Below, piece after piece: positions 5,559-51,220 of a stretch of DNA of 64,000 bases. Location: assembly GCF_031755915.1 (NCBI RefSeq), contig NC_083382.1, forward strand, positions 6,076,001 to 6,140,000. The letters are read 5' to 3'. Position numbers and translations under genes: made by a program. Each line of letters opens with the position of its first letter. The stretch's first letter is position 1. Below the pieces are notes generated by a model that saw only the letters and a list, made by a program, of their open reading frames with translations, made no database searches and had not been told where the DNA came from. This stretch comes from Ziziphus jujuba. Taxonomy: Eukaryota; Streptophyta; Magnoliopsida; Rosales; Rhamnaceae.

Positions 5559-6030
5559 AAAATAACCCTTGCATTCTCTTTAACTTTTCTGCATCTGTTT
5601 CTCAAAAATCTTATCCTGTTTGTTTGGTTAGTTTAATGAAATCTTCTTTACCAACTGAAACATGAATAAAAATGAAAAGAAAATAGAAGACATAAATTAG
5701 GTAAATTATAGATGCTAGTTATATATTCTCCCTTGTTAATTATTGAAATAACCTTTAGAGTATAAAAATTTAGAAACAAAGGTAAAAGTGATTTAAAATA
5801 ACCCTTGCATTCTCTTTAACTTTTCTGCATCTGTTTCTCAAAAATCTTATCCTGTTTGTTTGGTTAGTTTAATGAAATCTTCTTTACCAACTGAAACATG
5901 AATAAAAATGAAAAGAAAATAGAAGACATAAATTAGGTAAATTATAGATGCTAGTTATATATTCTCCCTTGTTAATTATTGAAATAACCTTTAGAGTATA
6001 AAAATTTAGAAACAAAGGTAAAAGTGATTT
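5559..6030. repeat. Perfect tandem duplication, 2 x 236 bp
   Basis: Positions 5559-5794 and 5795-6030 read identically through the whole unit, starting AAAATAACCCTTGCATTC and ending AAAAGTGATTT. There is no coding content. Complete identity implies a very recent duplication or an assembly duplicate. Confidence 0.9.
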
Positions 6031-6164
6031 AAAATCTTCATGTTACCTCTATTTATAATGAGACAACGTATACATTTTAAGGGTAAATTACATCTACCTC
6101 TTTGAGCTTTGATAAAAATAAATTAAATGCCAAAGGGAACAACCGGCTGTTTCACAACTACAGA

Positions 6165-6557: not shown

Positions 6558-8524
6558 CTAGCTAAATTCTCCAGCTTCTTTGTGTAAGCTCAAACCTTGC
6601 ATGTCTTGCTCATATAAACGAGTGCTGGAATTTTTCTGCCACTTTGTATGGAAGTATACATCACAAGGCAAATAAAACACCCAAAGGTGATAACTACTGC
6701 TTCTGAAAAATCCAGGACACTCAACAAGTCCGAATCCCCAATCTTGTCGGTCGACTTTTACCTTGCATTCACCACGTGAATCTGTGCCTTTAAACACAGA
6801 TAAAGCAAAACCCCTCCACTCACTGTTGCACCAATTTTTATCTAGTTCTAAACTTATCCAAGGCACAAAACTTCGATGAGTGAACCAGACTGGAATTTCA
6901 TATCCAGGAAGAACAATATCAAATCTTCTGCTTCGATTAGGCGGATTCTGTAACAATGAAAAGGAACCATCATGTTTAATTATATTAAGCATTAACAAGT
7001 AGAAACACAAAGAGAGGTAGAGAGAAAGAGAGACCTGAAGGTATCTTTTGAGTGATGCCAATGCTGTCTTTTTGCTTCCGTGGCTGCTTACCAATTTACA
7101 GCAGTCCAAACAACTTGCAGAACACGTCAAGTGGCAATGGTCGTCAGATGGATCAAGGAAAGTATCCAATGAAGTACAGTAATCAACCCATACCATTTCT
7201 AAGCTTGGTGGAATCTCTGGTCCCAATGAATTTAGAATATCGCAATTTCTCAAATCAAGATTCCTAAGCTTGGATAGTTAGGTAAGAAAAGCCATTGTAG
7301 CTCAAGTCTAACTCTTCTAAAGAAGCTAAGCAACCAAAATCTTCAGGAATTGCTCCATCCTTAAGAAAGAGATTACTTAGATTCAATTTTTTCAAAGAAT
7401 AATGACAACCTGGGATGAGACCTTTGCCAACAATGATATTCATCATATCTTCCCATTGTGATTCTGAATATATTGGCACACCCCATGGTTCTGAATCAAA
7501 AGAGTCTCGCCAACAAGAAAGCACGTCTCGTCTATGAAAGCTGCCCAGATGAAGCTCCTCCAAATTATGTAAATGCCCCAAATACTCTGGTAAGCTGCTT
7601 TCCATTATACAACGAGAAAGTTTAAGAACTTTGAGAGATTTCAAACCATTTATGCTTGTTGGAAGATTTTTTAGACAATAGCAATGATTCAGGTTCGGTG
7701 AAGTAAGCCTCCTAAAAGTGTGATGGACGGATGGGCCTCCACTAGATTTGAACATCTCTCAAGAATCAATTTATCTAGATTTGGAGCCATCCCAAAGTCT
7801 TTAAAGTCTCTAATTTTTGTTGAACCACTTAAATCAATGATTTTCAAATTATATAAAGGCGGTTATATCAAAAAAGAGAAAATTTAGTTATTTCATAAGA
7901 CAATATATATATATATATATATATTGGACGTTTGTTTTCCCCCATAACGTTTGTGTCTAACGTCAGAAAACATGTTACCTAAGGCCTGTATCCTTCATAT
8001 ATAGTTTGATATTAGGCGCCTAAACTATGGTTGGAGAAATATATTTACTGTAGCATATATGTATATTATATTTCAGATGAGTGTAGCATACTATAAGAAA
8101 TTCTAAAGTTACCTTGATAGGGTTGTTCCAAAGTTGATTGATATTGCTCGACAACAACTTCAATTCAACAAGGCCATCTGGTTGGAAACTTGAAGGCAAA
8201 CTTGTGAAAGGAACTAAAAACCAATTTAGAATTCGTAACTCATTAGAAAGATATGTTAGACCACCTCCCATTTGACGGCCAGACCCAATGAGCAATCTTA
8301 ATTTCTTCATCTTTGAGATGGCTTCCCAACAGTGTCCAAGGTGACTTTCTATGGCTTCAACTTCTTCTGTAGCCTGATAGTTGAAATCAAAACAACAAAA
8401 GTTAAACACAGTATATAACAGTTTTTCCAGCTATATATAACATACATAAATATTTTAATTTACATAAAAGTATTTTTGTAACTCTATATATGCCAATTGA
8501 AAAGGGCTTAAATGAAAAAACTCA

Positions 8525-31427: not shown

Positions 31428-31499
31428 ACGGAATTGAAAGCTATTTTGGAACAATTACAACGGGTGAGTGCTTAAGTTGAAGATCCAACAAACATTTTT

Positions 31500-32700
31500 A
31501 ATTTTAATTCAGTTTTGTTAACCTTTTTGAAGTCCGACTTATAGCCTTGTTTCTTCTTCTTCTTCTTCATCCTTCTTATTTTTTTTTTCAAGTTATTTTA
31601 TTTCATCTGTAAATAGATTAGACATTTATTATTACCTTTTGTTTTCCTTTCCAAACAGAATTTAGTTGTGCATCACACTGATATTTTTTGTCATTTGGTA
31701 CTTTTTACTTAGATCAATATTATTTATACTATGTTTTTATAGAATTTGTTTAAGAAATGATCTCTTCTTCATTTCTTGCTTGAATCACACATGTCCATGA
31801 CCACTTGTATGATCTATGATCTATATGATTTTCTCAACATATTAATTGTTTACAATTGACTGTCTTTCTCGATTTGTTTGCAGTGCTGCCAATAGCATCT
31901 TTGTTTCCATTCCTTTATTTCATGGGTTTGTGTGTATTTTATTTGTGAGTGTTTTTTCATTCATTATACTCATTTGTAGATAGCTTCCAACATTTATAGC
32001 ATTTTCCATGCCATTGATGGAATTTTTGCACTGTTATTTGAATTTGACATGTTTATAAGTTTGAATGTGTTACTTGACATGGAAATGTTTCTTGTGTTAC
32101 TTTTAATTATATCTTATGTTATTTGTCTTGCCTTTAAGAAATTCATAGAATGTATCTATGGACATCCTTTTAGCATATTTTTCTCACTCTTTTAGTTCCT
32201 GAAGATGTATGAAATTAGATATTATTTTTTTGAAACGAATTTGGTTGAATGCCCCTATTTTGAAAGCTTTAATGAAAAATACCCCCCTTGTGTTGATATG
32301 TACATGTTAATGAAATATACCTTCTCCCTTTCAAAATTTTTTTATCTACCCTCTTCTACCATTTTATTCTTGAAAAAAATTAAAAATGAGTTGAGTGTCT
32401 TTTTTTTATATTTATATTTTTCTAGCAGTCTGGATTAATATTTGTTGAAGGTTGGCCATCTACTCAATGTATTGATTGAAATTGGTGTTTTTTTTTGCAG
32501 TTTTAGAGATTTGGGCGTCCTTTAGCAAATCAGTCTATGAGATTGGATTTTGGTTCTATACAATTCATAGAGAGTAAGGGATATTACTGGGTATGAGCTA
32601 TTGCCTCAATTGTTAGATTTGGACCTTTATACTTCTTTATGGATACTCTAGGTATTTAATTATTTTCTTTGAAACTTGTATGCTAAATATTGTAACTAAC
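31500..32700. other. Unassigned AT-rich region
   Basis: A (TTC)n run lies at 31.55 kb. I see no supportable gene. Text such as GACCTTTATACTTC near 32.62 kb shows no codon pattern. It may be intron or intergenic sequence of the gene fragment at 32.7-33.6 kb. Confidence 0.4.
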
Positions 32701-32704
32701 TGCA

Positions 32705-33559
32705 GATATTTTGTTTGATTTCATCGAGGTATCAAATTCATCCAGGTATCAAATCGGTCTCCGTTTTAGTAAAGGTGCCCCGTATTGTGACAGTCCAGAC
32801 CACCTGCATGTAGATATTGTCCACTTTGGGCCTGGGGAATCCTCTTACAACCCAGCCTTCATGAGTTTAAAACGCATCTACAAGGGAAAGGTATCCATAC
32901 GCTTATAAGCCATTGCTTCGTTCCCCTTTCCAACCGATGTGGGATCTCACAATCCTCTCCTTTTGGGGCCCAGCGTCCTCGCTGACACATCGATCTGAGT
33001 CTGGCTCTGATAGCCTAGACCACCCGCATGTAGATATTGTCCACTTTGGGCCTGGGGAATCCTCTTACAACCTAGCCCTCATGGGTTTAAAACGCGTCTA
33101 CAAGGGAAAGGTATCCACACGCTTATAAGCCATGCTTCATTCCCCTTTCCAACTGTGGGATCTCACAATCCTCCCCCCTTGGGGCCTAGTGTCCTCGCTG
33201 ACACACCGATACGGGTCCGCTTTTGATACCATCTGTGATAGCCCAGACCACCCGCATGTAGATATTGTCCGCTTTGGGCCTGGGGAATACTATTACAACC
33301 CAGCCCTCACGGGTTTAAAACGCGTCTACAAGGGAAAGGTATCCACACGCTTATAACCTATGCTTCGTTCCCCTTTCCAACCGATGTGGGATCTCATACG
33401 TATGCTTTTAATGCTATCACTAAAGTTTGGCATTATACCAATTATGGTGCCAGTTGGTGTTCAAGATTTTGACGTAGATGGGGAACTTTGGGTCAAATTG
33501 GGATTGATACCAATAGAGCCTTTTGTAGGAGCTGTAATATTCTCTAGTTTTTATTCATA
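32705..33559 (+). pseudogene. Gene fragment resembling an SMP/C2-domain membrane protein, split by a TRIM
   Basis: After the TRIM, 33403-33559 reads MLLMLSLKFGIIPIMVPVGV then QDFDVDGELWVKLGLIPIEP, ending FVGAVIFSS and a TAA. From memory this resembles the SMP lipid-transfer region of plant NTMC2-type (synaptotagmin/tricalbin-like) proteins, where PTEPWVGA would continue into more domain. Before the TRIM, 32705-32785 could be the start of the same exon. The piece is short, isolated and ends early, so it is a fragment. The family assignment is inference. Confidence 0.45.
32786..33398 (-). mobile_element. Tandem TRIM with three LTRs and two interiors
   Basis: LTRs at 32786-32951, about 33009-33167 and 33234-33398 are separated by ~60-bp interiors carrying, on the minus strand, a degenerate primer site (TGGTATCAAAAGC in the second) and an AAGGGGGGAGGAT polypurine tract. 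The first interior/LTR junction has lost about 13 bp (CTCTGATAGCC). A 5-bp target duplication, CGTAT, flanks the whole array (32781-32785 and 33399-33403), so it behaves as one insertion. The last LTR ends TCTCATA rather than TCTCACA. Confidence 0.85.
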
Positions 33560-35150
33560 AAACACTTGTACATTTTTCTCTTGCTAATTCAGATTCAGTT
33601 TTTAGTTTTTGTACATGATTCTTGTGTCAAGATGAAGTGTAAGGACCTAATTTCATTATTAAATTCTCCATATTATTTGAGATGTGGAAAAGCAATAAAT
33701 AAGAAAGATGAGAATTTAAATGGATGGTAATTGAGTTCTCAAATATTGGCTCTCTAGTTTCTGACCATTTGAACTTGTTTGGATGGTATGCATTGAAATG
33801 TAGTTAGTTTTAGATTGTAGATTATCCCCAGCTTGAAAGCTTCTTCCAATCACTTTTAAAATGCGGCTCCATGGTAGTATGTCCAAATGAGAGTTGTCAG
33901 GAGGGAATTAATTGTGCACTTGTGGAAAATATTTAAATAAATGGATATGAAAGTGTAGAATAAATGGAACATTCTCCCATTTCTCATCTACCGTCATTTC
34001 TCATTAACTGTCAAATAAAGTGGAAAATATTTAAACAATTTTTTTTTACCATCTCCCATTTCTCATCTACCCTCATTAACTTCTATCCCTCTCTCTTACT
34101 CTCCCTGCTACCATATTCAATGAATCTTGTGTGTCCCCCTCTCTCTTTCTCTTTTGTTGGTTACGTACCTTTCAGCCTTTCTTTGCACTGACCAACCATT
34201 GCAGAAAACACAATACCACCTTCAGTTCAGTTTAGTCTCCTTGCATACCCCCAAACTTTTGTGATAACAACAAAACTGAAAATCTTCATTGTGGAGCCCA
34301 TAGACTTCAAAAGGGTGTAATTAAAGTGTACTTTTGTGCGGATCAGAGTTAAGGATTTTTTGGTATGTGTATATATATATATATATAAATATATGTACAT
34401 ATATGTATATATTTTTCCCTTATATTGGATTCATTGTTTGTCATGTTTTGACATGATATATAAGTGCAAGTTCTATGTTGGTTTGATTTTATGTAAAACA
34501 ATCCATAAATGGTTCGGAAATTTCCATTTGAAAATTACAACCTTTGTTCGTTACATACGGTCCATCGGTAATTACGAAACACTTGCTTGTTAGAAAATTT
34601 AACCGCGGTTCCATTGGAATATTTAATTTTTCCATTTTCTGAAAGCAAAACACCTCAATCGAATTTGTCCACTTTGATAATGTTATTGTATATGAATGAC
34701 ATGCTAAATGTAACTATATTTGTGATTGTTAACAAAATAATCCACACAACACCACAATGTGAACATTGCATCCATTCAAGCTAACGTTATGTTATGATTT
34801 AGAACATGTGCCACAAACTTGACATTTTATTCTACTTGATACACTATGTCTGTCAAGAGTAGCTATTCTACTAGGCATTAATATGCAACATTTAAACATA
34901 ATTGTTTGGCTTATTTTCTGTACTCATTTTCTGAAAATGCATTTGTATCTTTTCATTACTTTTGCTTCAGGATTATAATTAAACCTTGCAACAAAGATTC
35001 TACGATTGCAATTATTTTTAGTCATACGACCTCACAAATTACCACAAGCTTGTGACAAGGAGATACTTATTATGTTTTGAACTGGTAAACCCTTTGTGCT
35101 CAATGTCATAAATTTCATTTCTACTGTTCTATGATGGAACATGGAGTTTA
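33560..35150. other. Unassigned region left of the MULE transposase
   Basis: No gene is supportable. It holds a CTCTCT-rich stretch (34.08-34.16 kb), an (AT)n run (34.37-34.41 kb) and, at 34.56 kb, CATCGGTAATTACGAAAC, a near match to the core of the MULE array at 41-44 kb. That match suggests the MULE extends at least to 34.5 kb on this side. I could not find its terminal inverted repeat. Confidence 0.45.
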
Positions 35151-35159
35151 TGTTCTGAA

Positions 35160-38100
35160 GGTACTTGGAGATACCAACGTCAAAGAACGAAGATTATACG
35201 TATCAAAAGGAATTGTACATTGGCAAAACTTGAAGATGTTGTCTACAACGCTCTCAACTTAGATTCTACACAACATCAACCAATCTTCAAGTTTATATAC
35301 CATGTGTGTTTTTCATGTGAGCCGTACATTGTGGAAAATGAGGAAGACCTGCAAAGTTTTATAGAATAATATAGTTCACACAGACCTCAAGACAGATCTC
35401 CACTTATTGTTGATGTGTTATCCAGGGTTCTACAAAGTATTAATACTGCTAGATGTGTTGTGAATAGCATACCTACAAGTTCAGGATCTATGACTGTTGC
35501 CCCACTATCTGCAGTTCCAGAGATAGTAATATGTACCTCTGATGGTGACATGCAGTCCCCAGCGACCTAACTTCATAAGCCGGAAACTCAACCTGGATTC
35601 TCCAAAAATCAAATTTGTGAAAACGATGTGCAATCTGTGGAACATTGTCAGGACCTGTCTAAAATTCCTCACCGGAACTCTAGACAAGCTCTGATCCCAG
35701 GGAAACCCTACCGAACCTTCCAATGGAAAATCCGGCAGAACCTCCCCTAAGGGTTGGACTTACCACAATTTTCCTGCACTGAAAACACACTTCTAGATAC
35801 ATCCCCTTATTCCTCCCACATTACTACAATTTAATTCCACAAATTTACAGCATTCCAAAATAATAACAGGGAATTAATGCAGTATTTAATAAAATGTGTC
35901 CAATACAGTATACAGAGCATTATACAAATAAATATGAAATTAATACAATGTCAACTAAAGAAGCAATACAAGATGAAGAGGAAAAAGGGAAGAAATGCTT
36001 CTTGGACTTTTGGCAATGAACTGAGACGTCGGGCTCACCCCGGACGATCAACATCTCCCAATCCTTGTACCTATGGGAACGAAATTTAAAAATATGAGAT
36101 GTTAATCATCTCAGTGAGTGACCCTATCTACTGTACAATTATAATGGTAACGAGAATTATAGTACATTTGATTAATTAAGAATAAATAAGTAAATAAATA
36201 ATAATTAATTGAAAATAATATTTTCTCTCAAAACCCTCACAATTCACTCCGTTGGAAAGGTTCCCCTTTTAAAACATTTTCGCAAAACCCAATCTTTTAT
36301 GCCCCGAAAATCAAGGAATAATTAATTTAATAAATAATTAAATAATCCAAATACGAATAAAATGTAATGAAATATAATAAAATAAATTTAGAATACTTGC
36401 ATTAAAGGAATATAACATAAAAGAGAAATTCAATATATAATTCGTAAAATGTGATTTAATAAATCAAAATAAATAGTACCAAAAATATAATTTAAATAAT
36501 TACAAACAATCATGTAAAATAAGTGGTAGAAAAATACTATAATATTCATTTTGAAATATTCAACCAATCTATATAATATTTTTATGGCAAAATGCATTTT
36601 AAAAACATTAATTTAAAATAAATGACATAAAATATGAATAATTACATTTTAGAAAATACTAATTGGAAATAGGCGATAAAACAAATTAAATTTATTTAAT
36701 TTAAATACTGTTTTAAAACTTTAAGATTTGAAATTTATATTTGAAAAATAATACTTGACGCACCACACTATATACCAGTGATGCCCTATGATACCTAGCG
36801 TCCCGAGCACCATCTGGTGGGAGGTTAAAGAGAGAAACTTGCATACAGTCGCTTCGGCGTCTTGACAGCGCCGCTGCTTAAACTGTCATCCCGGCCATGG
36901 AGGGGGCCGGCTTATGTGCACCATATAGAACTTGCCTGCCCTCGGTCCAATGGCAACTCACTGGAGACATTATAACTTGCACGCTTATCCACATATACAG
37001 TACAGAACACCAGTACTGTATGAGTGTGTCTAAAACAAATAACCAAGTTTATTATTAAAATACCCAATTTTTCCAAAATTCACCATGGGAATTATACCAT
37101 TTTTCAAATTCACCATCCTATATTTTTCTTTAATAACACCAGCATAACTCCATCGATAAAAAATTCCATCAATTTCAAATCCATCAATGAAATCAACAAT
37201 AATTTAAAATAAATATTCCTTCAATTCCTTAAACTTCAAAACATAATTAAGTCACATGATAAACATAACAATTATAAAAGAAAATTGAAATCACAATTTC
37301 TTTTAATTCCCAAATATATTTTTGGCGCTCAAACATATATTAAAACAACATGCATTGGCAATATACTTTAGATGGAAATTCTCTTAATATCAAATACATA
37401 AAACATATTTTTCAAATATCCAATTATAAAATATTCCAATAACAAAATCCAATAATTATTAAATTAAACCTTAAATTCAAGAAAATTCTTAAAACCCAAA
37501 ATATTTATAATACACAAATAATTAATTTCCTTCAATTTTGGCATCAAAATTCCAAATATAAATTTACTAAATATTCAACATATCAAACATATTTTTCAAA
37601 TAACCAATTAACACAAAATATATATATTTTAACATCCCAAAATAATTTTGAAGGTGGGTCACTTACCTCGAGCACGCAATTAATCCAAGATCCTCCATGG
37701 GATCAATTCCACGACGCACACGTGCTTCTAAAACAACAATATTACACATTGTCAAATAAATTAATATTTTATTCGGATAAATAATACCTGATAGATGGGG
37801 GGTTTAACACAAACATTAACCAAAATTTACGAGTAATATACGAAATCGAAGCTTGTGAAACAAGGATTACAAATCTAGTCTTACTTCCCGGATATCAGAC
37901 CCGAGGTGGCCGGAATCTCGTCGGAAAGCTCACAGATTTTAGGCCTTTGATTCTCACAATCCGTTAAGAATTGAGGAAAGTGGACACCGAATTTGGGTTC
38001 AGAGAGTCGAAATGAGGGGGAAAGAATGGGCAGTGCAACTGAAAACTCGCCGGAAAGTCGATTTCCCGACGAGCAGCCGTGGTCACCAGAATCCGCCACC

Positions 38101-40950
38101 GCCGGCAGCTCGTCCGGTGGCCACTGGCCGTCATTTTTGGTGGGAAGGTAGATCTGGTGATGGATAACTCAATAGGACCGGCGGTGAGGCAAACAGAGGT
38201 CAGAATGGAGAGAAATCTGGGTTTGAAGCAATTGACGCCGCCATCGAAAAAAGTCTCGATCCGGGCGCGTCGGCGGTCGGTTGGCCGGCCAGTTTTTAGG
38301 TGGTCTTCAAGGTGGGGTGGCACGTGTATGGAAAGGGTGGCCAGAAAATGGCTAAGCGGAGGTGGCCAATTGGTTTCTCTCTCTTCTCCCCGACTCACGC
38401 GTTTTAGCCAGAATAAAAGCCACCCGGGGTGACACTGTTCACTCACGGGATTGGCTGAAAATACAACACGTGGCACACACTGTTCACATACATACAGATC
38501 CATGAATAGTAAATGTTGTCTCGGAAAAACTTCACAGTTCCGCAACTTTCAAACCACATGTCCAAATCGGACGTGCCGCTAGTCTATAAACTCGTATCGA
38601 AGAGTACTTCACAATATGAATGAGTCAAAGCTCAACTTTGCATGAACAAAAAGTCAACTCCGGCACCCCTTGGACAGTTTGGACCTCAACGTGTTTTGCT
38701 CATAACTTTCAAACCGTAGCTCCGTTTTTGATGTGCTACTAGTCTATGAACTCGTAACAACGTGTACTTTTTAACGGTACCTCGATCAATGTGAAATTCC
38801 ATCAGGAACAAAAAGTCAACATTTGATCCCTTGACGGTCAAACCCGGTCAACCTTGGTCAAATTTTAGAAATTTCCGATGTACTTCGGGACGGGGTGTTA
38901 CGAACATGATCATGATAATGAGTGCTTTGACATTAATGATATGAATGAATATCGTGGACATGATAATGATAAAGATGGACAATTTGAGGTTGAGGTCAAC
39001 ATTGATCGTAGTGAAGATGGGTTACGTGACATTTGTTGGACCTAACATTCGGGACTTTCAGCTTGTGATAGTCAACATGGTGATTCTTCTTATGGTAATA
39101 GTCCAATTGGTAATGTGAATGATGATGTGCTTGCTTCTCCTTATACCGAAAACCATTTGGACATTCGACAGGATTGTACCGCATCCATGGCTGAACATAG
39201 GGTTAATCGTCGCTTCTCATATGTCAATCCCATGAAATCATTCGAATGAATCAACTCTTTTCGAGTAAGAATGCACTATAGAAGAAGCTTAGTCTTTATG
39301 CACTAAGGAAAAATTTTAAATTCAAGGTCAAGAAGTCAGATAGGGTCTGATATGAGGTTGTATGTGTAAATGACAATTGCATGTGGCAATTGCGTGCTAC
39401 CAAGCTACATGGTGATAATACAGAGGCCTTCATGATTAGGGCCTTCAAGGATGAGCATATTTGCTTTTTAAATATCATGAAAAGGGATCATCGTCAAGCA
39501 ATAAGTTCAGTTATCGGAGACATCATCTAGCCAACGTTTGATGGGATTTCACGGTAATACAAACCCTGAGATATCATGCATGACATTCACTTTAATTACG
39601 GAGTAAACATAAGCTACAACAAAGCATGGTCCGTTAAGGAAGTTGCATTATCAAGTTTGTGGGGCACGCCAGAAGAGTCATATGCAAAACTTCCTTTATG
39701 GAGTCACGTTTTGAAGAGCAAAAATCCGGGCACGTTTACTCGAATTGAAACTGACGATCAAAACAGATTTTTATAGTTTTTCATGGCACTTGGAGCTAGC
39801 ATCAGATGGTTTCAGCATATGCAGAGAGTCGTAGCTGTCGATGGAACTACGCTGAAGAATAGATATAGAGGTTTGTTATATATTGCATCATGTTTTGATG
39901 GGAATAATCAAATTTATCCACTTGCTTATGGAATAGGCCATGGGGAGATGGATGCTGCTTACACGTGGTTTTTTGAGAGATTTAAATAAGCGTTTGGGGA
40001 TGATCCGAATATACCCTTTATATCAGATACACACAAGAGCGTTGCAAAAGCGATATGTACAGTTTTCCCTAATAATCACCATGGCCACTGCACATATCAT
40101 CTTGGTACAAATTTGAGTGCTAAGAAGTTTCAAGGTAAATTCAATGCGATTATATCAACTTTTAATGATGCAGCTAGGGCATATATTGTTGAGGATTTTG
40201 ATGAGGCCATGCAGCGTTTAGAAGGGATTAGTGTTGAAGTTGTACAATATCTCAAGGATGCAAATCCTACAAAATGGGCTAGATCACATTTTCCGGGCAA
40301 TAGATACAACATAATGATCACTAACATCGCAGAGAGCATGAACTCTGTGCTTCTTGATGCTAGGGATAAACTTGTTTTGCCATTACTAGATCACATTCGT
40401 GATGTCTTGCAAAAGTGGTGGTATGAACGTTGAACTAACGCAGCTGCAATGCAAACTCCTATTAGTAATTGGTTGGAAAATATCATGCAGGAGAGCTCAA
40501 ATAATGGTAGAGGCTTATGTGTTATTCCATTGAACTTATATGAGTTTCAAGTTGTTGGCCATGGCGTGTTCGTTGGAGTAGTCAACATAGAAAATAAGAC
40601 GTGTTTATGGAAGGAATTTGACATTGATGGATTTCCTTGTGTCCATGCAATTACAGCATGTAAGCATCGACAATTGCAGCAGTTGACTCACTCCGTGATG
40701 CATATTCGGAAACCATAAATCCACCTAGAGATAAATGTCAGTGGCATGCTCCAGATGATGTCATAAACCAGCTTGTACTTCCACCTAAGATTGGAAAACA
40801 GTCAGGAAGACCAAGAAAGAAGAGGATTCAATCTCAAAGAGAGGAGCGTCATCAATATAGATGCGGGAGGTGCAAACAGATTGGTCACAGCAGCTGATCA
40901 TGCTCGGTCGCCGTACCTCTTGAGAGCACTACCAACCAGCAGCACCATTC
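35160..40950 (+). pseudogene. MULE transposase (MURA-like), decayed and interrupted
   Basis: MURA cuts and rejoins MULE DNA. N-terminal block (35.17-35.6 kb): LAKLEDVVYNALNLDS, FIYHVCFSCEPYIVENEED. After a 3.26-kb insertion the gene resumes at 38.9 kb (HDHDNECFDINDMNEY), then the DNA-binding zinc region (NFKFKVKKSDRVRYEVVCVN, 39.3-39.5 kb). DDE catalytic core: VVAVDGTTLKNRYRG (39.8 kb), FISDTHKSVAKA (40.0 kb), the HHGHCTYHL motif and ITNIAESMNSVLLDAR (40.3 kb). SWIM zinc finger CLWKEFDIDGFPCVHAITAC lies at 40.6 kb, then GRPRKKR and a CCHC knuckle CGRCKQIGHSS with a TGA inside (40.88 kb). Several stops and frameshifts disable it. It converges on the Ulp1-like gene. Confidence 0.9.
35646..38902. 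mobile_element. Solo-LTR-like insertion of 3.26 kb with perfect 5-bp target duplication
   Basis: It begins TGTCAGGACCTGTC and ends GGGACGGGGTGTTACG, flanked by AACAT on both sides (35641-35645, 38903-38907). Removing it restores the MURA frame (VQSVE|HDHDNE). No gag or pol motif, primer site or second LTR was found, so it is most simply a solo LTR of a long-LTR Gypsy element, with its final CA changed to CG. The middle is very AT-rich; 37.88-38.45 kb is GC-rich with CCGGAA/GCCGG motifs. Reading frames on both strands of that GC-rich part are chance. Confidence 0.8.
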
Positions 40951-41309
40951 AACCACGTAACATGTGTTTTGGCATAATAGACATTGGTTTTATGTGTTCT
41001 TTTGTTGTTAAAGTCATCTGTCGTATTATGTTGATAACATATCATTATGTGTTCAGTTTTTGGTTCAGTTTTTTGTAAGTTTCTTACTGTTGCACAGATG
41101 ATATTACTGCCCACTGGTAATGACAGATGCATTGTCGGTAATTGACATTTGTACACCGTCGTAAAAGAATCATCGGTAATTACATCGGACAACTTCAATC
41201 ATGTGTGTTCCAACCAAGAACATGCTAAATGTAGTTATTAATGATAACTGCTGTCAAAGTTAGAGAAACAACGACATTAATAAGTGAAAACATTCAGTTT
41301 GTTTTTTCT

Positions 41310-43010
41310 TCAAACATTACCATAAGTTTCATCGGTAATTACCGAAACCCTTATGGTAATCACATTTTACCAATTTTATAGCCCCCGCAAGTCCTCTAAT
41401 GTGTGTTAAATGCAAAAACATGCAAAATATGGATTCTTAAATGATCATAAGGAGAAAAAATCCCAAAATTTCTAAAAAGGTTCTCAAATCGGCAAACAAA
41501 ATTTGATTACTTCGGTAATTACCGATGAAACCTACGGTAATCAATTTATACTTGCTGGAAAAATTATCGTAGGTTTCATCGGTAATTACCGAAACCCCTA
41601 TGGTAATCACATTTTACCAATTTTACGGCCCTCACAAGTCCCATAATGTTTGTTAAATGCATAAATATGTGAAATATAGATTCTTAAATGATCCTATGGA
41701 GAAAAAACCCCAAAAGTTCTGAAAAAATTCTCAAATTGGCAAAAAAATTTCATTACTGTAGGCATTCGGTAATTATCGATGAAACCTATGGTAATCAATT
41801 TATACTTGCTCGAAAACTTACTGTAGGTTTCATCTGTAATTACCGAAAACCCTATGGTAATCCCATTTTACCAATTTTATGGCCCCTGCAAGTCCCCTAA
41901 TGTGTGTTAAATGCAAAAACATGCAAAATATAGATTCTTAAATGATCCTAAGGAGAAAAAATCTCAAAAGTTCTGAAAAAGTTCTCAAATTGGCAAAAAA
42001 ATTTGATTACTATAGGCCTTCGGTGATTACCGATGAAACCTACGGTAATTAATTTATACTTGCCGGAAACATTACCGTAGGTTTCATCGGTAATTACCGA
42101 AACCCCTATGGGAATCACATTTTACCAATTTTTTGGCCCCCACAAATCCCCTAATGTGTGTTAAATGCGAAAACATGCAAAATATAGATTCTTAAGTGAT
42201 GCTAAGGAGAGAAAACTCCAAACGTTCTGAAAAGTTCTCAAATTGGCAAAAGAATTTGATTACTGTAGGCCTTTGGTAATTACCGATGAAACCTACGGTA
42301 AGCAATTTATACTTGCTGGAAAAATTACCGTAGATTTCATCGGTAATTACCGAAACCCCTATGGTAATCACATTTTACCAATTTTTTGGCCCCCACAAGT
42401 CCCCTAATGTGAGTTAAATGAAAAAACATGCAAAATATAGATTCTTAAATGATCCTAAGGAGAAAAAACCACAAACGTTATGAAAAAGTTCTCAAATTGG
42501 ACAATTTATTATTATTATTGTAGGCCTTCGGTAATTACCGATGAAACCTATGGTAATCAATTTATACTTGCTCGAAAAATTACCGTCGGTTTCATCAGTA
42601 ATTACCGAAACCCTTATGGTAATCACATTTTACCACTTTTTTGGACCCCACAAGTGCCCTAATGTGTGTTAAATTCAACAACATGCAAAATATAGATTCT
42701 TAAATGATCTAAGGAGAAAAAACCCCAAATGTTCTGAAAAAGTTCTCAAATCAAGAAAAAAAAATGATTATTGTAGGCCTTCGGTAATTACTGATGAAAC
42801 CTACGGTAATCAATTTTTACTTGCTAGAAAAATTACCGTAGGTTTCATCAGTAATTACCGAAACCCTTGTGTTAATCACATTTTACCACTTTTTTGGGCC
42901 CCATATGTCCTTTAATGTGTGTTAAATGCAACAACATGCAAAATATGGATTCTTGAATGATCCTAAGGAGAAAAAACACCAAAAGTTCAGAAAAAGTTAT
43001 CAAATTGTCA
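41310..43010 (+). repeat. MULE array, forward half: seven ~255-bp units
   Basis: Units recur at the ATTCTTAAATGATCCTAAGG mark near 41.43, 41.69, 41.93, 42.19, 42.45, 42.70 and 42.95 kb. Each unit holds a ~29-bp inverted repeat whose arms contain CGGTAATTACCG and GATGAAACCTACGGTAA, with a ~24-nt AT-rich loop. A unique-looking spacer ending in AAAAGTTCTGAAAAAGTTCT follows. CGGTAATTACCG is itself a perfect 12-bp palindrome. No reading frame is conserved between units. Confidence 0.9.
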
Positions 43011-43014
43011 AAAT

Positions 43015-44640
43015 TTTCCAAATTGTTGGGGTTTTTTCTCCTTAGGATCATTAAAGAATGTATATATTGCATGTTGTTGCACTTAACACACATTAGGGGA
43101 CTTGTGGGAGCCAAAAAGGTGGTAAAATATGATTAGCATAGGGGTTTCCTTAATTACCGATGAAACCTACGGTAATTTTTCCAGCATGTATAAATTGATT
43201 ATCGTAGGTTTCATCGGTAATTACCGAAGGCCTACAGTAATGAAATTTTTTTGCCAATTTGAGAACTTTTTCAGAATATTTGGGGTTTTTTCTCCTTAGG
43301 ATAATTTAAGAATCTATATTTTGCATATTTTTGCATTTAACACATATTAAGGGACTTGTGGGGGGCAAACAATTGGTAAAATGTGATTATCATAGGGGTT
43401 TCAGTAATTACCGATGAAACCTACGGTAATTTTTCCAGCAAATATAAATTGATTACGATAGGTTTCATCGGTAGTTACTGAAGGCCTAGAGTAATCAAAT
43501 TGTTTTGCCAATTTGAGAACTTTTTCAGAACTTTTGGGGTTTTTTTCTCCTTAGGATCATTTAAGAATCTATATTTTGCATGTTTTTGCATATAACACAC
43601 ATTAGGGGATTTGTGGGGGCCAAAAAATTGGTAAAATGTGATTACCATAGGATTTCAGTAATTACCGATGAAACCTATGGTAAGTTTTCAAGCAAGTATA
43701 AATTGATTACCGTAGGTTTCATCTTTAATTGCCGAAGGCCTACAGTAATCAAATTTTTTGCCAATTTGAGAAATTTTTAAAAACTTTTGGGGTTTTTTCT
43801 GCTTAGAATATTTTAAGAATCTATATTTTACATGTTTTTGCATTTAACACACATTAGGGGACTTGTGGGGGCCATAAAATTGGTAAAATGTGATTACCAT
43901 AGGGGTGTCGGTAATTATCGATGAAACCTACGGTAAGGTTTCCAACAAGTATAAATTGATTATCGTAGGTTTCATTGGTAATTATTGAAGGCCTACAGTA
44001 AACAAATTTTTTTGCCAATTTGAGAACTATTTCATAAATTTTGGGATTTTTTCTCTTTAGGATCATTTAAGAATCCATATTTTGCGTGTTTTTGCATTTA
44101 CCACACATAAGGGGACTTGTGGGGGTCAAAAAATTGGTAAAATGTAATTACCATAGGAGTTTCGGTAAGTACTGATGAAACCTACGATAATTTTTCCAGC
44201 AATTATAAATTGATTACCGTAGGTTTCATTGGTAATTACCGAAGGCCTACAGTAATCAAATGTTTTTGCCAGTTTGAGAACTTTTTTAGAACTTTTGGGA
44301 TTTTTTCTCCTTAGGATCATTTAAGAGTCCATATTTTTCATGTTCTTGCATTTAGCACACATTAGGGGACTTGTGAGGGCCATAAAATTGGTAAAATGTG
44401 ATTACCACAGGGGTTTCGGTAATTACCGATGAAACCTACGGTAATCAAATGTTTTTGCCAATTAGAGAAATTTTCTTGAACTTTTGGGGTTTTTTCTATT
44501 TGGGGTCATTAATGGATGTATATTTTGCATTTTGTTGATGGAAAAACCCATTAGTGGACTATTTGGAGTAAAAAAATATGTGAATTGATATTGCCGAAAG
44601 CGTGTCGGTAATTACCGATGATGCATCGGGAATTATTGAT
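43015..44640 (-). repeat. MULE array, reverse half: seven units in opposite orientation
   Basis: The same ~255-bp unit in reverse complement, with the CTCCTTAGGATCATT mark near 43.04, 43.29, 43.55, 43.80, 44.05, 44.31 and 44.49 kb. The switch of orientation lies around 43.00-43.02 kb at CAAAATTTTCC. The outermost unit fades into a diverged CGGTAATTACCGATGATGCA stretch at 44.61 kb. Together with the forward half it forms a ~3.3-kb imperfect palindrome. Confidence 0.9.
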
Positions 44641-44790
44641 GCACTATCAATAATCATCTTTGTTTGAATTTTTATCAAAACCGAGGGTCTTCTCTTCTTT
44701 TTTTTTTTGTCAACAATTATCATTACTAAATCTAGGTTCAGCATATTCAGATAACATTAGTATAAGGTGTCATAACATTAAACATACGAT

Positions 44791-47700
44791 CTACATTGAA
44801 AGTTTATTAAAGTACAAATCAACAGCATATTTTTTTCTAAAAAAGCTAATGTCTTTCGGGCCAAATGAAAGATTCTCCTCACTGCTCTTGTATTCAATAA
44901 ATTTCAAAGCGTAGACGCCATAGTCACCCCTGCAGAATAACATTAATGAAAACCAACCACATGTATTTCCACACGTAAGCACAATTAAACAGTAGCAATA
45001 GAAGTGGTTTGAAATGACAACACATTCATACCCATTATCTTGGCGGGGTGCATCTTTGGTCATGGTCATCGTGAATGGCTCTAAAGTGGGAAGCACGTCC
45101 GGATTCTTATCGTAATATCCCCCATCCCTCAATAGGTAAGGCAGCATATACATAAGGCATTCCACATTTTTCAACTCTTTATTATGGAAATATTTATTTC
45201 CCATATTTGGATCGTATAAATCAATATGTCGCACCTTCAAGTCCACACATGCTACCAACCAATGGGCGCCTCCATTGTTGATTGGGATGTACACTAGAAA
45301 ATCAGAAGATAACCTCATTATCCACAAATTGGGAAACTTAGTCAGAATTTTTTTAAATAATGTAGGGACTTACATAATCACATCTCCGCCACAGCATGCT
45401 AGGTTTGGGTGACTTCCCATGCATATAGCTACGAAGTGTCGAATCACATGAATATGTGCTTCGAGATGCCCCCCATATGGGATAACGCCCTTTGATGGAT
45501 GACTGCCAAATAATTAAATAGATACAATATAAAATGTCATCAATATAACATTAAGCAACACAATAACATCCCATCATCTTACCCAAAATAACACGTCTAA
45601 TATGGCACAGTTGTGGGTGAACATCTTCTCATTCTCAAACCGCCTTTTTCGTATGAAATAAAAAATAGTGTCAATATGCTGCAAAACCACATTAAAGGAA
45701 ATAAATAACAAGTGCGAGGTGATAAATAAAACATCATTCCAAACAAAAGAACACAATGAATTTACATGAAAATAAAGTATATAACTTACATCGGAAGTCA
45801 ACCATCCTTCAGAGGTAAGTAACTCAGCAAAAAAATTCTTCCCCATCGTCATATAAGATGTACACACGGTCGCTTCATTCGGTGCCACCCTATACCACTC
45901 ATCAAACGCCCTCTCCTTCGATGCATCAATATGTCGATTAAGATTAAATTTGACCTTCTTCTTACACAGATCGGTGTAAGGAGAGATGATGTGATGTGAT
46001 TGGTGGTAAACTTTACCAAATCAGCTTGTCTCACCAACTTTTATGTGTCCAATCCTCCACCTTAATCTCAGCTGATTGGTCATGATGTGGACTGTCAGCT
46101 GAAGCACTGATATCCCACCCCAAATGCAAAGGCCGATATGGCACCAAAGTCCAGGAATCCTTTACATAGGGTCCTCCAGGTATGATAGGCTCAAACGGTA
46201 TTGTACAATCCTCATTCTCCTTCCTACCATTAGAATCGTCTATGGGTGCATCAAACTCTTTAGCTTGCTCTCCAAATGACGGTGCCATAGGAGATGATGG
46301 TTGCACCAAAGATGACGGTGAATGGGTGTGCATATGATGTTCGGCCTCCAAAACACAATGGTTATTTTGTAGTTCCCAAACTCTAACAACAAATAATTGC
46401 CAAATTATAATATAGAATTTAATAATGCTGAAACCCTAAAGTATACTAAGTTGTCTAAATGATACCTGATGCTTTTGTTGGTCGATAACAGAACTAAGCA
46501 TCGTCCTTAAAGATGCCATCTCTTTCTTTAATTCATCAAATTTTGCCTCCAAGCAAGCAAGCTAATCAATATCAATATCCAAAACATAAGTCAATATATA
46601 TTAGTACAACATATGAAATGCAAATTTGCATGCAAGTAACAATTGCATACCCTGAAATTAGCATTTGGAGGGCCACTAGAATGCTCCTCAGCTTTGGACA
46701 CATCTTTAGTGCCAACGGTGGCTATGGGTGCTACAAGTGGTGATGCTGTATAGCGAACTTCATGTATGTTCACTACTATTGTTCGCTAGTAATCCATAGT
46801 CTTCTCCTCATCGGTAGCATCTAACCTCCAGTGCACAGCATACTACATGAAATGAAGCAAGGAAAAAAAAGTTAATTTCGAAACTGACATTGGTAATGTA
46901 ACTTGAATGTAGTCGTACCATGTAGTCTAAATAAATTTGCCTTATATTGCTATTTGAGGTGAACCAATTATGGACGAAATGGTTCAGTTGACTTGTAGCA
47001 TGCCATCCAAGGATCCTCGGACAACGGATTTCCCGCTGCTCGCCAAAATGGTTACCAAAATCAGGGATTACTTCAAACCCCCACAACTACAAAATATAAA
47101 TTACAGGTTATTAAATATAATTTTTAAGTAAACGCTATATGTATTAAATATATTACCGTACCTGAAATGCCAATGGAAAGCCTTTTAGGCCATATGACTG
47201 TGATTTATTCTTTACTGCACATCCTCTATACTTGAATGCATTGTGGAATGAGTCGATTGTCTCCTTGTAGCTTAGACTGCCCCAAGGGTAGGAATTAAAT
47301 ACCTCGATATCGGCAACCAAATCAATGAATTTTCTATTTATTTGAACCCTCGGATCCATTCTGAGTACACCATGAACTAAGAAATATAGTAATGCAATTC
47401 TTACAGCATCCCAATCATCCACAAAATTTGTACCCTTGTATATTCGTTCTAGTTTAGGCGATTTTAATTCAGGTCATCTAGCAACCTTGTGAGCAGCTCC
47501 TTTCCTTTGGAAATTTGCATATCATACATGGAAAGGTGCCTACAAAACTTTAAGCCACTAATGAGTGCAAATTCCCACTTCATAAATCGCACTCCAGATC
47601 TGCCAAAGTTAAACTCCAGTACTTCTGGATTGTTGGACGTAACTCGTCTGCCAAGCACGTGATGCACTAGATGACCAAAGAACCTGAGGTTCTTCATGTC

Positions 47701-48368
47701 AAGTAAGTGTCCAAAGCATGTTTGTCTATTCTTTTCCAGCTGCTCACTTGTGAGGACACTTGTAATTACTTTGTTCACTTCTATTGGATTCCCGAATGAA
47801 TGTGCCCTAACTTTAAATATATCGGCATCCTGCAAGATCCGTTCCTTTGGAGCGTCGATGGGTTGCAAAATGAATTACATAAATGGAACGGATGTCAACC
47901 ATTTAATCATACCCTATTTTTCTACCCTAACTTGATAATAATAATTTCCAACCAAATCTTAAGACATATGGGTTCACATTTTTGCACTAGTGGTAATTAC
48001 TGATGAAACCATCTGTAATCAACCTACAATGAACTAAAAAAAATCCCGATGGCCTATCGGCAATTAACGATGGCCATCGGGTGAAGTTTTTCTCGAGTAT
48101 TCACATTCATGAATAAATACTGACAGATGTCTTATCATTTACTGCACAAAACAATATAGATGAATATAAAGCTTACCATCTCAGATGGGGGAGAGGAGAG
48201 TGGAATGTGCCTTGGAAGTTTGATGCTTTCTATCTCAGCTTTGGATTGCTGCCTAGTAGTTCGTCGATGCTTAGAGTCGGGTGCTGATGTGCTACCACCA
48301 TGTCTCTTACTTTGTACCTTCTTACCTCCCTTCTTCGATTGAGCTCGCAAGTTCCTCTTTGGTGCCAT
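44791..48368 (-). pseudogene. MULE-borne Ulp1-like C48 protease gene with DUF1985-type region
   Basis: Exon 1 (48368-48177) starts MAPKRNLRAQSKKGGKK, a basic nuclear-type N-terminus, with donor GTAAGC. A DUF1985-like region follows (47.87-47.15 kb: FFGHLVHHVLGRRV, FGRSGVRFMKWEFALISGLK, WDAVRIALLYFLVHGVL), then a low-complexity linker (46.8-46.0 kb), RHIDASKERAFDEWYRV and TSEGWLTSD (45.97-45.79 kb), and the protease. Catalytic His is in GAHWLVACVDLK, Asp in IDLYDPN, Gln in RQDNG. The catalytic Cys position after a 102-nt intron (45031-44930) reads GDYGVYALKFIEY, so Cys is Tyr (codon 44920-44922). C48 proteases remove SUMO; such genes are known passengers of plant MULEs (Kaonashi, CUMULE). Frame breaks occur near 46.03 kb. 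Confidence 0.85.
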
Positions 48369-48399
48369 TATAAAGTACAACCTACAAATGTACATTGAC

Positions 48400-48677
48400 A
48401 ACATTAATAAATTTTTATCTACCTTTAACCACATTGTCAACTATGTATACATATATAAATATCCGCAATCCTCAATTTCATATGCTCTTTTCCTAAGGAT
48501 ATTATGTATGCCATCTGCAAAACATTTACTGAACATTTAGTGTATAGCAGTGTGTTTACTTCTAACTCTTTCTATCTTCTTCTTCTTCTTTATTGTTTTT
48601 TTTTTCTTTTTTGGGGATAAAGTGTTTGCGTGTTTGCTTCTAGCTAACCATGTACCTAAAATTTTATGCATCGATCT

Positions 48678-48720
<43 letters not shown>

Positions 48721-51220
48721 CTATATATCTATACCTTTAGAAAGTACTAACTCTGGAATTCTCAACTTCAATTCTAATTAATCATAAAGTATTTTTCTCT
48801 TATCTCCAAGTATTGATTTTTAGTAATAAATTACCCTAGCAAAAAGGACGAAGAAAAAACTTAAAAGAAAAAAAAGCTCTGAAAAGCAACTAAGATTTCT
48901 AATGCAGCTATAGTCTAAAGTGGGGTTTTAATATAGTAATCCACAATTGTGGCCAATTATGATGCTACATGCAGAAGCAGATAAAGTGAAATATTGAAAT
49001 GACTGGAGAGGAAGTAGTCAATTCACCCAAAAAAGAAAAACAAGAAAGTGAAGTATAGAGGGGGAAGACTACATAGAAGCTACGCAACAGATAGATTGTT
49101 ATAAGCCAATCAAAAGCAGCCCTTAGACTGTATATATACATATCATATTCATGTTATATTTAATTATTTCTTAACATACAATATATGTCTAAAAAATGTG
49201 CATAGAAAGTTGCAGACTATAATCTGAACATATAGGTTAAGCTGGACTGCAACATGTCCACCATTTCTATATGAGTATGTCAACTAATGTAGCTACATTT
49301 CTTTCTCATACTGCTTGTGTTTAACCTGGTTTGGTTATAAAAGCTTAGACCTACCGACACCTATATATGCTATACAAATCATTCACTTTATATTTATTTT
49401 ATCTGTATAATTAGTTTAGGGTCAAGGATTTATCTGTATACAAATCAAAAAAGAAAAAGAATTAGTTTCTTAAGGGTCAAGTACATTTTTATAAAAATTC
49501 TTCTTTTCAACCCACAAAAGTAGTTTTCTAGACAGAGTTTGAGTATCATGCACTAGTGAGATAACACCTTTAGCTTTAGGATTTAAACTTCGATCAAGGT
49601 AAAAATCCCTATATCCCTAAGTTGTAACAAATATATATATATACATATATTATGTTTATTTATTACAAACTAACATTATTCTTCATCAAATTCATTGATT
49701 TCCCTGCCTTCATCCTTTATTTATTTTCCATGCTCAGGGATGTTGATGGAACCCAAAAAAAAAAAAAATTTAAAAAAAATTAAAAAACAACGTGTCTTTT
49801 GGGTGTCATTCCTCCTAGACGACATGCCATTCGCTCCATCTTCAACCTTTAGCCCGGTTGACCCAAACTCGCCTAAACTGGTGCCGATCTGATTTTTGAC
49901 CCGGTTATTTCTCCCACCTCCGGCCACAGTTTAAGGCCAACCCGATCCCATTTTTTCTCTCTCTTCATTTCCTACTGATATCCAATATCAATCTATCCTA
50001 AAATCTAGGTTATAATCACTTCCATACAAAAACCTAAATTTCAAATAAACTTCAAAAATTCCACATTTTTAACCGGTTCTAAACACAAATCAATTGTTTC
50101 AATGTATCACATTGTACTAAATTTGTAAGTATTTAATGGTAAGGCAACAAATAAATACAAAAAAAAAAACCCACACAGGTCCAGGGCAAGGCAACAAATA
50201 AACACAAAAACAAATCCACATCGGTCACGGCAAGGCAAAAAATTAACACAAAAACAAACCCACACCGGTCCACGGCAACAAATAAACAAAAATATTAAAA
50301 CAATTACCTCAGAGATAGCCGTTCAAGGGTGCTGAGATGAGATGAAGTTTTGTTTTTTTATTTTTTCTTTGTATTTTTAAGGGTGCTGAGATGAAGCTTC
50401 CTTTGTTTTTTCCACGGCAAGTTTTGTCTTTTTGTCTTTTTGTCTTTTTGTGTATTTTGTAAAAACAATTACTTGATGTACTTTGTTTTCTTTTTCTAAA
50501 AAGTAGATTTTTGTTCTTTGTTTGTTTAAAACATAAAATGATACCGAAGTCATTTTTAATTGTTTTAAGGTTAAAATAGATATTGAAGGGTTAAAAAAAA
50601 AATAATAGCAAATGAAGGGGCAAATATCATTAGGCTCATCCCGAAAGGGATATTGGGCCAAATTCCCCTTTTATAAACCTTTACCAGTATCCAACCAAGG
50701 TTTCAATGGTCCAAACTCCTACTTTTTAGCTAGGTTGTGCCTGTTCAATTCTCACTTGTAAGCATTTATCCTAGATAAAGACATTAGTAATTAAATGATA
50801 TCTAAATTATACCTCTTCGTCTGCAAAGCACTCTATGAATGACTTGATTATTCGACTTGGTAAACTAATTTATGATAAAATACTTATGCTGCAGGAAGCT
50901 TCCATAGAAAAGAAAGATAGCTTGTTGAATCATTTGTCAATAACAGTGAGGTAGAGCGACCTCATTAAGTTGTTGTTCATTTCTTAGAACTTGCATAAAT
51001 TGCGTAGAGACCTAATGTGCCAGCCATCATAATAGATCTGACCAAAAATCTGCTTGGTTTTTTATCTTGTTTGATCACTTGATCCTATAATTATTATTAG
51101 CAAAACTTGCTGCTTACGTAATAAACTTTGAGCTATAAAATGTAGAAATATAAAAGACAAAAAATATCTCCATATTTTCTCTACAAATAAATTTCATATG
51201 CATTTTAGGAGGTAAATTTT
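48400..51220. other. Unassigned region right of the MULE, ending in module flank
   Basis: No gene is visible. It has a (CT)n(AT)n microsatellite at about 48.68-48.72 kb, an oligo-A stretch at 49.75 kb, a minisatellite at 50.14-50.29 kb, and from 50.89 kb the flank shared with 10.73-10.93 kb. I could not recognise the right end of the MULE. Confidence 0.45.
50141..50285. repeat. Minisatellite, about 3 units of ~50 bp
   Basis: Imperfect units of the form GGCAAGGCAACAAATAAACA followed by CAAAAACAAACCCACACCGGTCCAC. Short hydrophobic reading frames on the minus strand come from the repeat. Confidence 0.75.

Follow-up and report, generated by a model that had tools for sequence, protein, structure and literature searches.

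A mirrored array of palindromic sites in a MULE family of Ziziphus jujuba, a putative binding platform for the family's own VANC-like protein

What does a transposon gain, if anything, from a mirror-image satellite at the meeting point of its two genes? The question is raised by a 64,000-nucleotide stretch of the Ziziphus jujuba genome (contig NC_083382.1; hereafter the window), in which a tandem array sits between the 3' ends of a plus-strand transposase gene and a minus-strand gene with DUF1985 and Peptidase_C48 (Ulp1) domains. Tandem Repeats Finder resolves the array into two halves of 254-bp units, one forward (41312–43013, plus strand, 6.7 copies) and one reverse (43026–44445, minus strand, 5.6 copies). 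Unit matching, with partial end units counted, gives seven forward and seven reverse units that turn at about 43.01 kb. Both methods bear out a sequence-only reading of this DNA, which had proposed seven ~255-bp units each way meeting near 43.01 kb. The longest inverted arms of the array measure 796 nt with 88% complementarity, and self-comparison and core search identify a divergent end unit on the minus strand (44452–44633) with an exact core at 44606–44617.

Each unit includes two inverted 29-bp arms, and each arm contains the core CGGTAATTACCG or a variant of it. The core is a 12-bp palindrome with the half-site GGTAAT. The two cores of a unit are spaced 67 bp apart, and the distance to the next pair is mostly 186–188 bp. 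In the example at 41513–41591 (plus strand), arms at 41513–41541 and 41563–41591 enclose a 21-nt loop, and the predicted RNA fold reaches -48.3 kcal/mol versus -15.7 ± 3.1 for shuffles; a 29-bp hairpin built around the palindrome in every unit had also been proposed from sequence, and these values agree with it. At up to two mismatches, the array holds 23 cores and the window 29, against 0.74 expected, a count reached by none of 100 shuffles, which excludes chance as the source of their abundance. The half-site (GGTAAT/ATTACC) occurs 57 times in the 3.3-kb array, 14 times in the 11.9-kb rest of the element (leaving out an insertion at 35654–38901, described below), and 11 times in the 45.6 kb outside. 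Core variants outside the main array are located at 34566, 41136, 41174, 44606, 47991, and 48058; those at 34566, 41136, 44606, and 47991 had been noticed earlier as sites near 34.56, 41.14, 44.61, and 47.99 kb. Core search and copy alignment place one of these plus-strand variants upstream of the transposase gene (34566–34577) and a diverged pair, 67 bp apart, next to the DUF1985 exon (47991–48069). Other copies retain some of these sites beside the two genes: the half-site at 41136 is exact in five of eight other aligned copies, and the variant before the array at 41174–41185 (plus strand) is kept in none of the eight.

The element around the array is a MULE copy that we place at 32234–50668 (plus strand), with an uncertain left end. 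The right end at 50668 is common to nine other copies (L010, L011, L012, L014, L016, L019, L022, L026, and L027; L012 over 71 bp only), and copy comparison defines a right terminal repeat at 50553–50668 (minus strand). The left end is weakly matched: the left terminal repeat (32234–32285, plus strand) and the right-end sequence of L019 share 71% identity over 49 bp, and over 98 bp the left and right terminal sequences are 66% identical. Since the flanking 9-mers TTTTTTTGA and TTTTATAAA are alike, by eye, at just six of nine places, no firm target-site duplication is established. Positions 7979–9270 of L020 align with window positions 31478–32785, about 750 bp past the supposed left end; therefore, the element may extend further to the left, or else the flanks of these two copies are related to each other. 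Within the left region, positions 32786–33396 are occupied by 2.7 copies of a 228-bp tandem repeat, which looks like an expansion of the window copy because five loci (L019, L020, L022, L027, and L028) jump from window position 32785 straight to 33399.

Pfam assigns DBD_Tnp_Mut, MULE, and SWIM domains to the transposase gene and Peptidase_C48 to the gene opposite, which upholds the earlier identification of convergent transposase and protease genes of a MULE; the DUF1985 domain in the protease gene had not been named. The Peptidase_C48 domain runs opposite to the transposase, the arrangement that characterizes Kaonashi-type ULP MULEs. On the plus strand, the first part of the transposase N-terminal exon (35181–35654, by tblastn to the L023 exon) is separated from the remainder of the gene (38896–40954, with the MULE and SWIM domains and in-frame stops, by Pfam and copy comparison) by a later 3.2-kb insertion (35654–38901) that does not belong to the system. 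This insertion is absent here in L009, L013, L017, L018, L021, and L023, and no clear terminal repeats were found for it; parts of it also occur elsewhere in L012, L013, L020, L024, L025, and L027. The protease gene, on the minus strand, includes the Ulp1 exon (44791–45369, by Pfam), a middle exon without a known domain (45808–46414, by exon comparison), and the DUF1985 exon (47153–47874, by Pfam and profile). PF09331 (DUF1985) scores 46.7 bits in the window against a cut-off of 35.1 and is also above cut-off in L015; DUF287, which is drawn in Arabidopsis VANC proteins, had no match in the exons scanned. The insertion and the in-frame stops leave the window copy broken, and one or more stops interrupt some tested exon in every copy that has more than the transposase C-terminal piece, so no living copy was identified among those sampled. 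Pooled dN/dS among copies is 0.49–0.83 by exon. Elsewhere in the window, positions 5559–6035 hold two 100% identical tandem copies of a 236-bp sequence, either a very recent duplication or an assembly duplication, and irregular ACAC-rich tandem repeats of 48–109 bp lie near the window start (508–847).

Is the mirror a real and heritable structure? We searched the 394-Mb genome with 600 bp of the array and scored the best 40 of 725 candidates (483 matches); by a hand count among the matches listed, there are at least 40 array loci, the window included. Of the 39 others, 20 were read as 9.9-kb stretches. Together with the window, this makes 21 loci read at length, 11 mirrored (forward units first, reverse units last) and 10 one-way; one of them, L010, has two mirror blocks in a row. 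Ten further loci, picked for forward-then-reverse matches and read over the turning point only, are all mirrored, and the last nine are known from the matches listed, which show a single strand. The turning point of the window (J1, 42955–43075) is common to eight other loci at 90–94% identity over ~120 bp, and so occurs in at least nine copies on seven contigs (window, L009, L015, L020, L023, L029, L030, L031, and L032). A second, hairpin-centred turning point (J3) is found at a minimum of 11 loci (L010, L011, L014, L016, L024, and L033–L038), with 85–93% identity to L014, and L013 has a turning point of its own. The sequence-only reading had allowed that the inversion could be an assembly fold-back; the recurrence of J1 and J3 in so many copies shows that it is not. 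Separate origins of J1 and J3 were considered but set aside, because J1 becomes J3 once the sequence between a forward and a reverse hairpin is deleted. By this reasoning, one inversion suffices, and the mirror layout can be inherited from a single ancestral event. Between copies, the register of the units is mostly not preserved, but the turning point is.

The array also belongs to the MULE family rather than to the genome at large. Element sequence is present at 21 of the 21 array loci read at length. Ten of these (window, L009, L013, L015, L017, L018, L020, L021, L023, and L025) have transposase and/or protease coding sequence beyond a transposase C-terminal piece. Six (L010, L011, L014, L016, L024, and L026) have the C-terminal piece only, which measures 121–133 aa in the first five, all with mirrored arrays. 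Four loci (L012, L019, L022, and L028) contain zero transposase or protease residues in 9.9 kb, yet 5–8 units, and L027 has a 44-residue coding match. The left region of the element is present in all five, and its right end in L012, L019, L022, and L027 as well; the gene-less loci were found through the array. An array-blind control started from the transposase exon instead. Its search gave 424 first-look candidates, of which the best 40 were scored; from these, we took the 16 best copies by rank, excluding the window and copies adjoining known array loci (four of the 40), and read 1.6 kb downstream of each exon. Forward units are present in 13 of the 16 and start at nearly the same place, with reverse units within the stretch in 8 of the 13; the other three copies (L049–L051) have no units within 1.6 kb downstream. 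Because element sequence accompanies every array read at length and the array accompanies most array-blind transposase copies, the unit is not an ordinary satellite unrelated to MULEs, the second doubt raised by the sequence-only reading. That some gene-less derivatives retain the array is what one would predict if it were a cis site on which a protein made by other copies acts in trans.

Which protein might that be? A profile of the family's DUF1985 exons, searched against 177,635 distinct PDB sequences, has a sole match at E ≤ 1, VANC21 (9lnj and 9lnk; E = 0.004). The relative P0001 matches VANC21 alone (E = 0.0017), and for the single L023 exon, VANC21 is the first of two matches (E = 0.31). 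Altogether, these searches suggest a weak but specific homology to VANC21. The Ulp1 exon has no match at E ≤ 0.01 among solved structures. Within Ziziphus jujuba, 62% of the L023 DUF1985 exon aligns with the protein LOC132799827 at 84% identity. Wider homologues of the exon number two proteins, then three by profile, too few for a tree, and an AlphaFold model of P0001 (five sequences) reached a pLDDT of 41.5, which makes it unusable for comparing DUF1985 with VANC21.

VANC21 is described as an Arabidopsis anti-silencing protein that binds YAGTATTAY and removes methylation there; the motif is dense in the noncoding regions of VANDAL21, in one orientation and often in tandem repeats, and VANC proteins carry DUF1985 (PMC5735166). 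A 2026 review identifies the Kaonashi ULP genes (KIU) as VANC genes that have captured a Ulp1 domain, and their elements are likewise said to recognise motifs in their own noncoding regions (PMC13317346). The Arabidopsis motifs themselves are not those of the jujube array: YAGTATTAY occurs twice in the window versus 2.5 expected, both times outside the element, and of the eight window matches to the VANC6 motif AGTTGTMC, two are in the element and none in the array. These eight (1835–63362, mostly outside the element) compare with 3.4 expected, a number reached by 2 of 100 shuffles.

We consider it moderately probable that the DUF1985-Ulp1 protein of the same MULE family binds the array, which would act in cis as its platform. 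Such a VANC-like protein would recognize the 12-bp palindrome in dimeric form, matching its dyad, and gather on the array's many palindromes and GGTAAT half-sites. Once there, it would relieve DNA methylation and silencing, in cis for the element itself and in trans for gene-less relatives, and its protease domain may aid by removing SUMO from silencing factors. Because the site is palindromic, the orientation of the array need not matter. In favor of this reading are the match to VANC21, the array in gene-less derivatives and in 13 of 16 control copies, and the excess of half-sites in the array; against it are the weakness of that homology, a motif unlike those of VANC21 and VANC6, a mirrored instead of a single orientation, the modest conservation of the arms, and the three control copies with no units. 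Three other readings, in which the array binds the transposase, feeds a small RNA pathway, or has no function, are less well supported.

The best of these, which we nevertheless regard as unlikely, is that the array is a by-product, formed when a tandem repeat grew in noncoding 3' intergenic space and was inverted once, and now carried without function. Inheritance of the mirror from one or few turning points would fit this, as would the likeness of units, which is only slightly greater within one array (0.891, 0.881) than between loci (0.874, 0.872). Sequence conservation, compared over 123 full units from 21 arrays, bears on both sides. Taken over all positions, the arms (identity 0.935 and 0.927) are about as well conserved as the rest of the unit (0.927), as a useless repeat would have it, but this is because CpGs decay: the unit consensus has six CpGs, all within the arms, and the remainder of the unit has zero, against 5.4 expected. 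At A/T positions, divergence is 0.024 in the arms versus 0.050 outside, a contrast reached by 10 of 254 circular mask shifts, the true place included. Conservation of the arms is thus modest, and both the retained CpGs and the lower A/T divergence count against a by-product and for the binding platform. So do the outlying half-sites in other noncoding parts of the element, the 5–8 units kept by gene-less loci, and the array at 13 of 16 transposase loci.

Four loci (L043, L044, L053, and L055) combine an ordinary 93% transposase exon with a strongly diverged mirror array, the first core being altered to CGGTAATTCCCG in many units. In L043, L044, and L053, the transposase exon is 93% identical to that of the window, as in other copies, and the arrays stand at 77–78% identity, versus 81–87% for ten other control arrays. 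The array therefore changes faster than the transposase, and a fast array beside a steadier transposase is the pattern described for VANC targets. The subfamily consensus is changed at 1 of 24 core positions, 8 of 58 arm positions, and 39 of 196 positions outside; the contrast with the outside is not significant for cores (Fisher p = 0.09) or arms (p = 0.34), a further point for a by-product. DUF1985 exons of the subfamily are 80–83% identical versus 80–88% elsewhere (two of three loci read; L056 yielded none). These exons show no clear excess of divergence, so the array and the DUF1985 exon of L043, L044, and L053 do not clearly diverge together, and array-DUF1985 co-evolution is not demonstrated.

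It is rather improbable, in our estimate, that the array is an internal enhancer-like transposition site to which MURA, or a complex containing this transposase, binds. The sequence-only reading had suggested a transposase-binding array; binding of a protein still explains the array best, but a protein other than the transposase is the likelier binder. MULE transposases bind terminal repeats, and by eye the core is absent from the five terminal-repeat sequences examined; in addition, the neighboring DUF1985 gene is a relative of VANC21, which has exactly the habit of binding such arrays. These two points place the transposase behind the DUF1985 protein as first-choice binder, and the array is also missing in 3 of 16 transposase-bearing copies. 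What speaks for MURA is that gene-less derivatives retain the right terminal repeat together with the array, and that there is a partial parallel in another superfamily. The subterminal repeats of CACTA (En/Spm) elements are bound by TNPA; like the jujube array, they consist of short, much-repeated sites, and they are needed in cis by an element-coded, transposase-associated protein. Those repeats are subterminal, whereas the jujube array is central, between convergent genes.

More doubtful still is a fold-back RNA, also put forward by the sequence-only reading, in which convergent read-through would produce a long double strand, then small RNAs, and then methylation of the array. The maize Mu killer locus is a precedent for such a source of small RNAs. 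The 796-nt arms with their 88% complementarity would suit this role, as would the strong unit hairpins, and excerpts of one study describe the noncoding regions of VANDALs as RdDM targets (PMC10398659). In the diverged subfamily, two adjacent arm pairs are changed on both sides, by eye, as could be expected of a retained hairpin but equally of two sites that changed jointly. However, arms pair no better within a unit (0.8786) than across units (0.8767 ± 0.0024). This lack of co-variation weakens a hairpin role, and the sites look kept as duplex sequence instead. Furthermore, 10 of the 21 arrays read at length are one-way, and a fold-back RNA explains poorly why the element hosts the array, because it would be harmful to the element rather than helpful. 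A terminator, the third suggestion of the sequence-only reading, or an insulator between two convergent transcription units is highly improbable, in spite of the array's position between the two 3' ends, since gene-less derivatives retain the array.

The binding platform for the DUF1985-Ulp1 protein has its closest relatives in VANDAL21 and VANDAL6 with VANC21 and VANC6 of Arabidopsis. These MULEs, too, encode a transposase and a DUF1985 protein and carry a short motif tandemly repeated in noncoding regions, with repeats that vary more than the transposase (PMC5735166). Their motifs, YAGTATTAY and AGTTGTMC, are given there in one orientation, whereas the jujube cores are palindromic and set in a mirrored 254-bp unit; the jujube element also differs in its Ulp1 domain and conserved right terminal repeat. 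Kaonashi (KI) MULEs share a Ulp1 domain that points against the transposase, and TIRs are reported for the ULP-bearing MULEs of melon and grapevine (PMC2528002). Arabidopsis KI-MULEs are without TIRs. KIU-type VANC genes are similar in that they are said to target motifs belonging to their own type of element (PMC13317346). In the available text on Kaonashi and ULP-bearing MULEs of melon, rice, and grapevine, we found no mirrored repeat array described, and the excerpts searched among open-licence PMC papers contain no palindromic-core mirrored array of this kind. The gene set and layout (a transposase and a reversed DUF1985-Ulp1 gene) are already known; the array is the new part, with its palindromic motif, regular 67/187-bp spacing, and inherited mirror layout.

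A more specific version, in which the array is an orientation-free anti-silencing platform, is speculative, and we think it improbable in full. Here, a VANC-like protein with a SUMO protease would read the perfect 12-bp palindrome as a dimer, at paired sites 67 bp apart every 254 bp, with about one nucleosome per 187-bp gap. The mirror would serve both convergent genes, and the fold-back could feed the small RNA pathway. If this is true, the array would be ground contested by the element and the plant, and the diverged subfamily would be a platform changing in place within the same genome.

Transposons are known to defeat host silencing by VANC-type anti-silencing, of which few cases have been sampled. 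This high-copy jujube family, with its regular palindromic array, gene-less derivatives, and diverged subfamily, makes it possible to test how DUF1985 proteins read DNA and what role the captured Ulp1 domain has, and its core motif could serve as a tool for removing methylation from chosen plant sequences.
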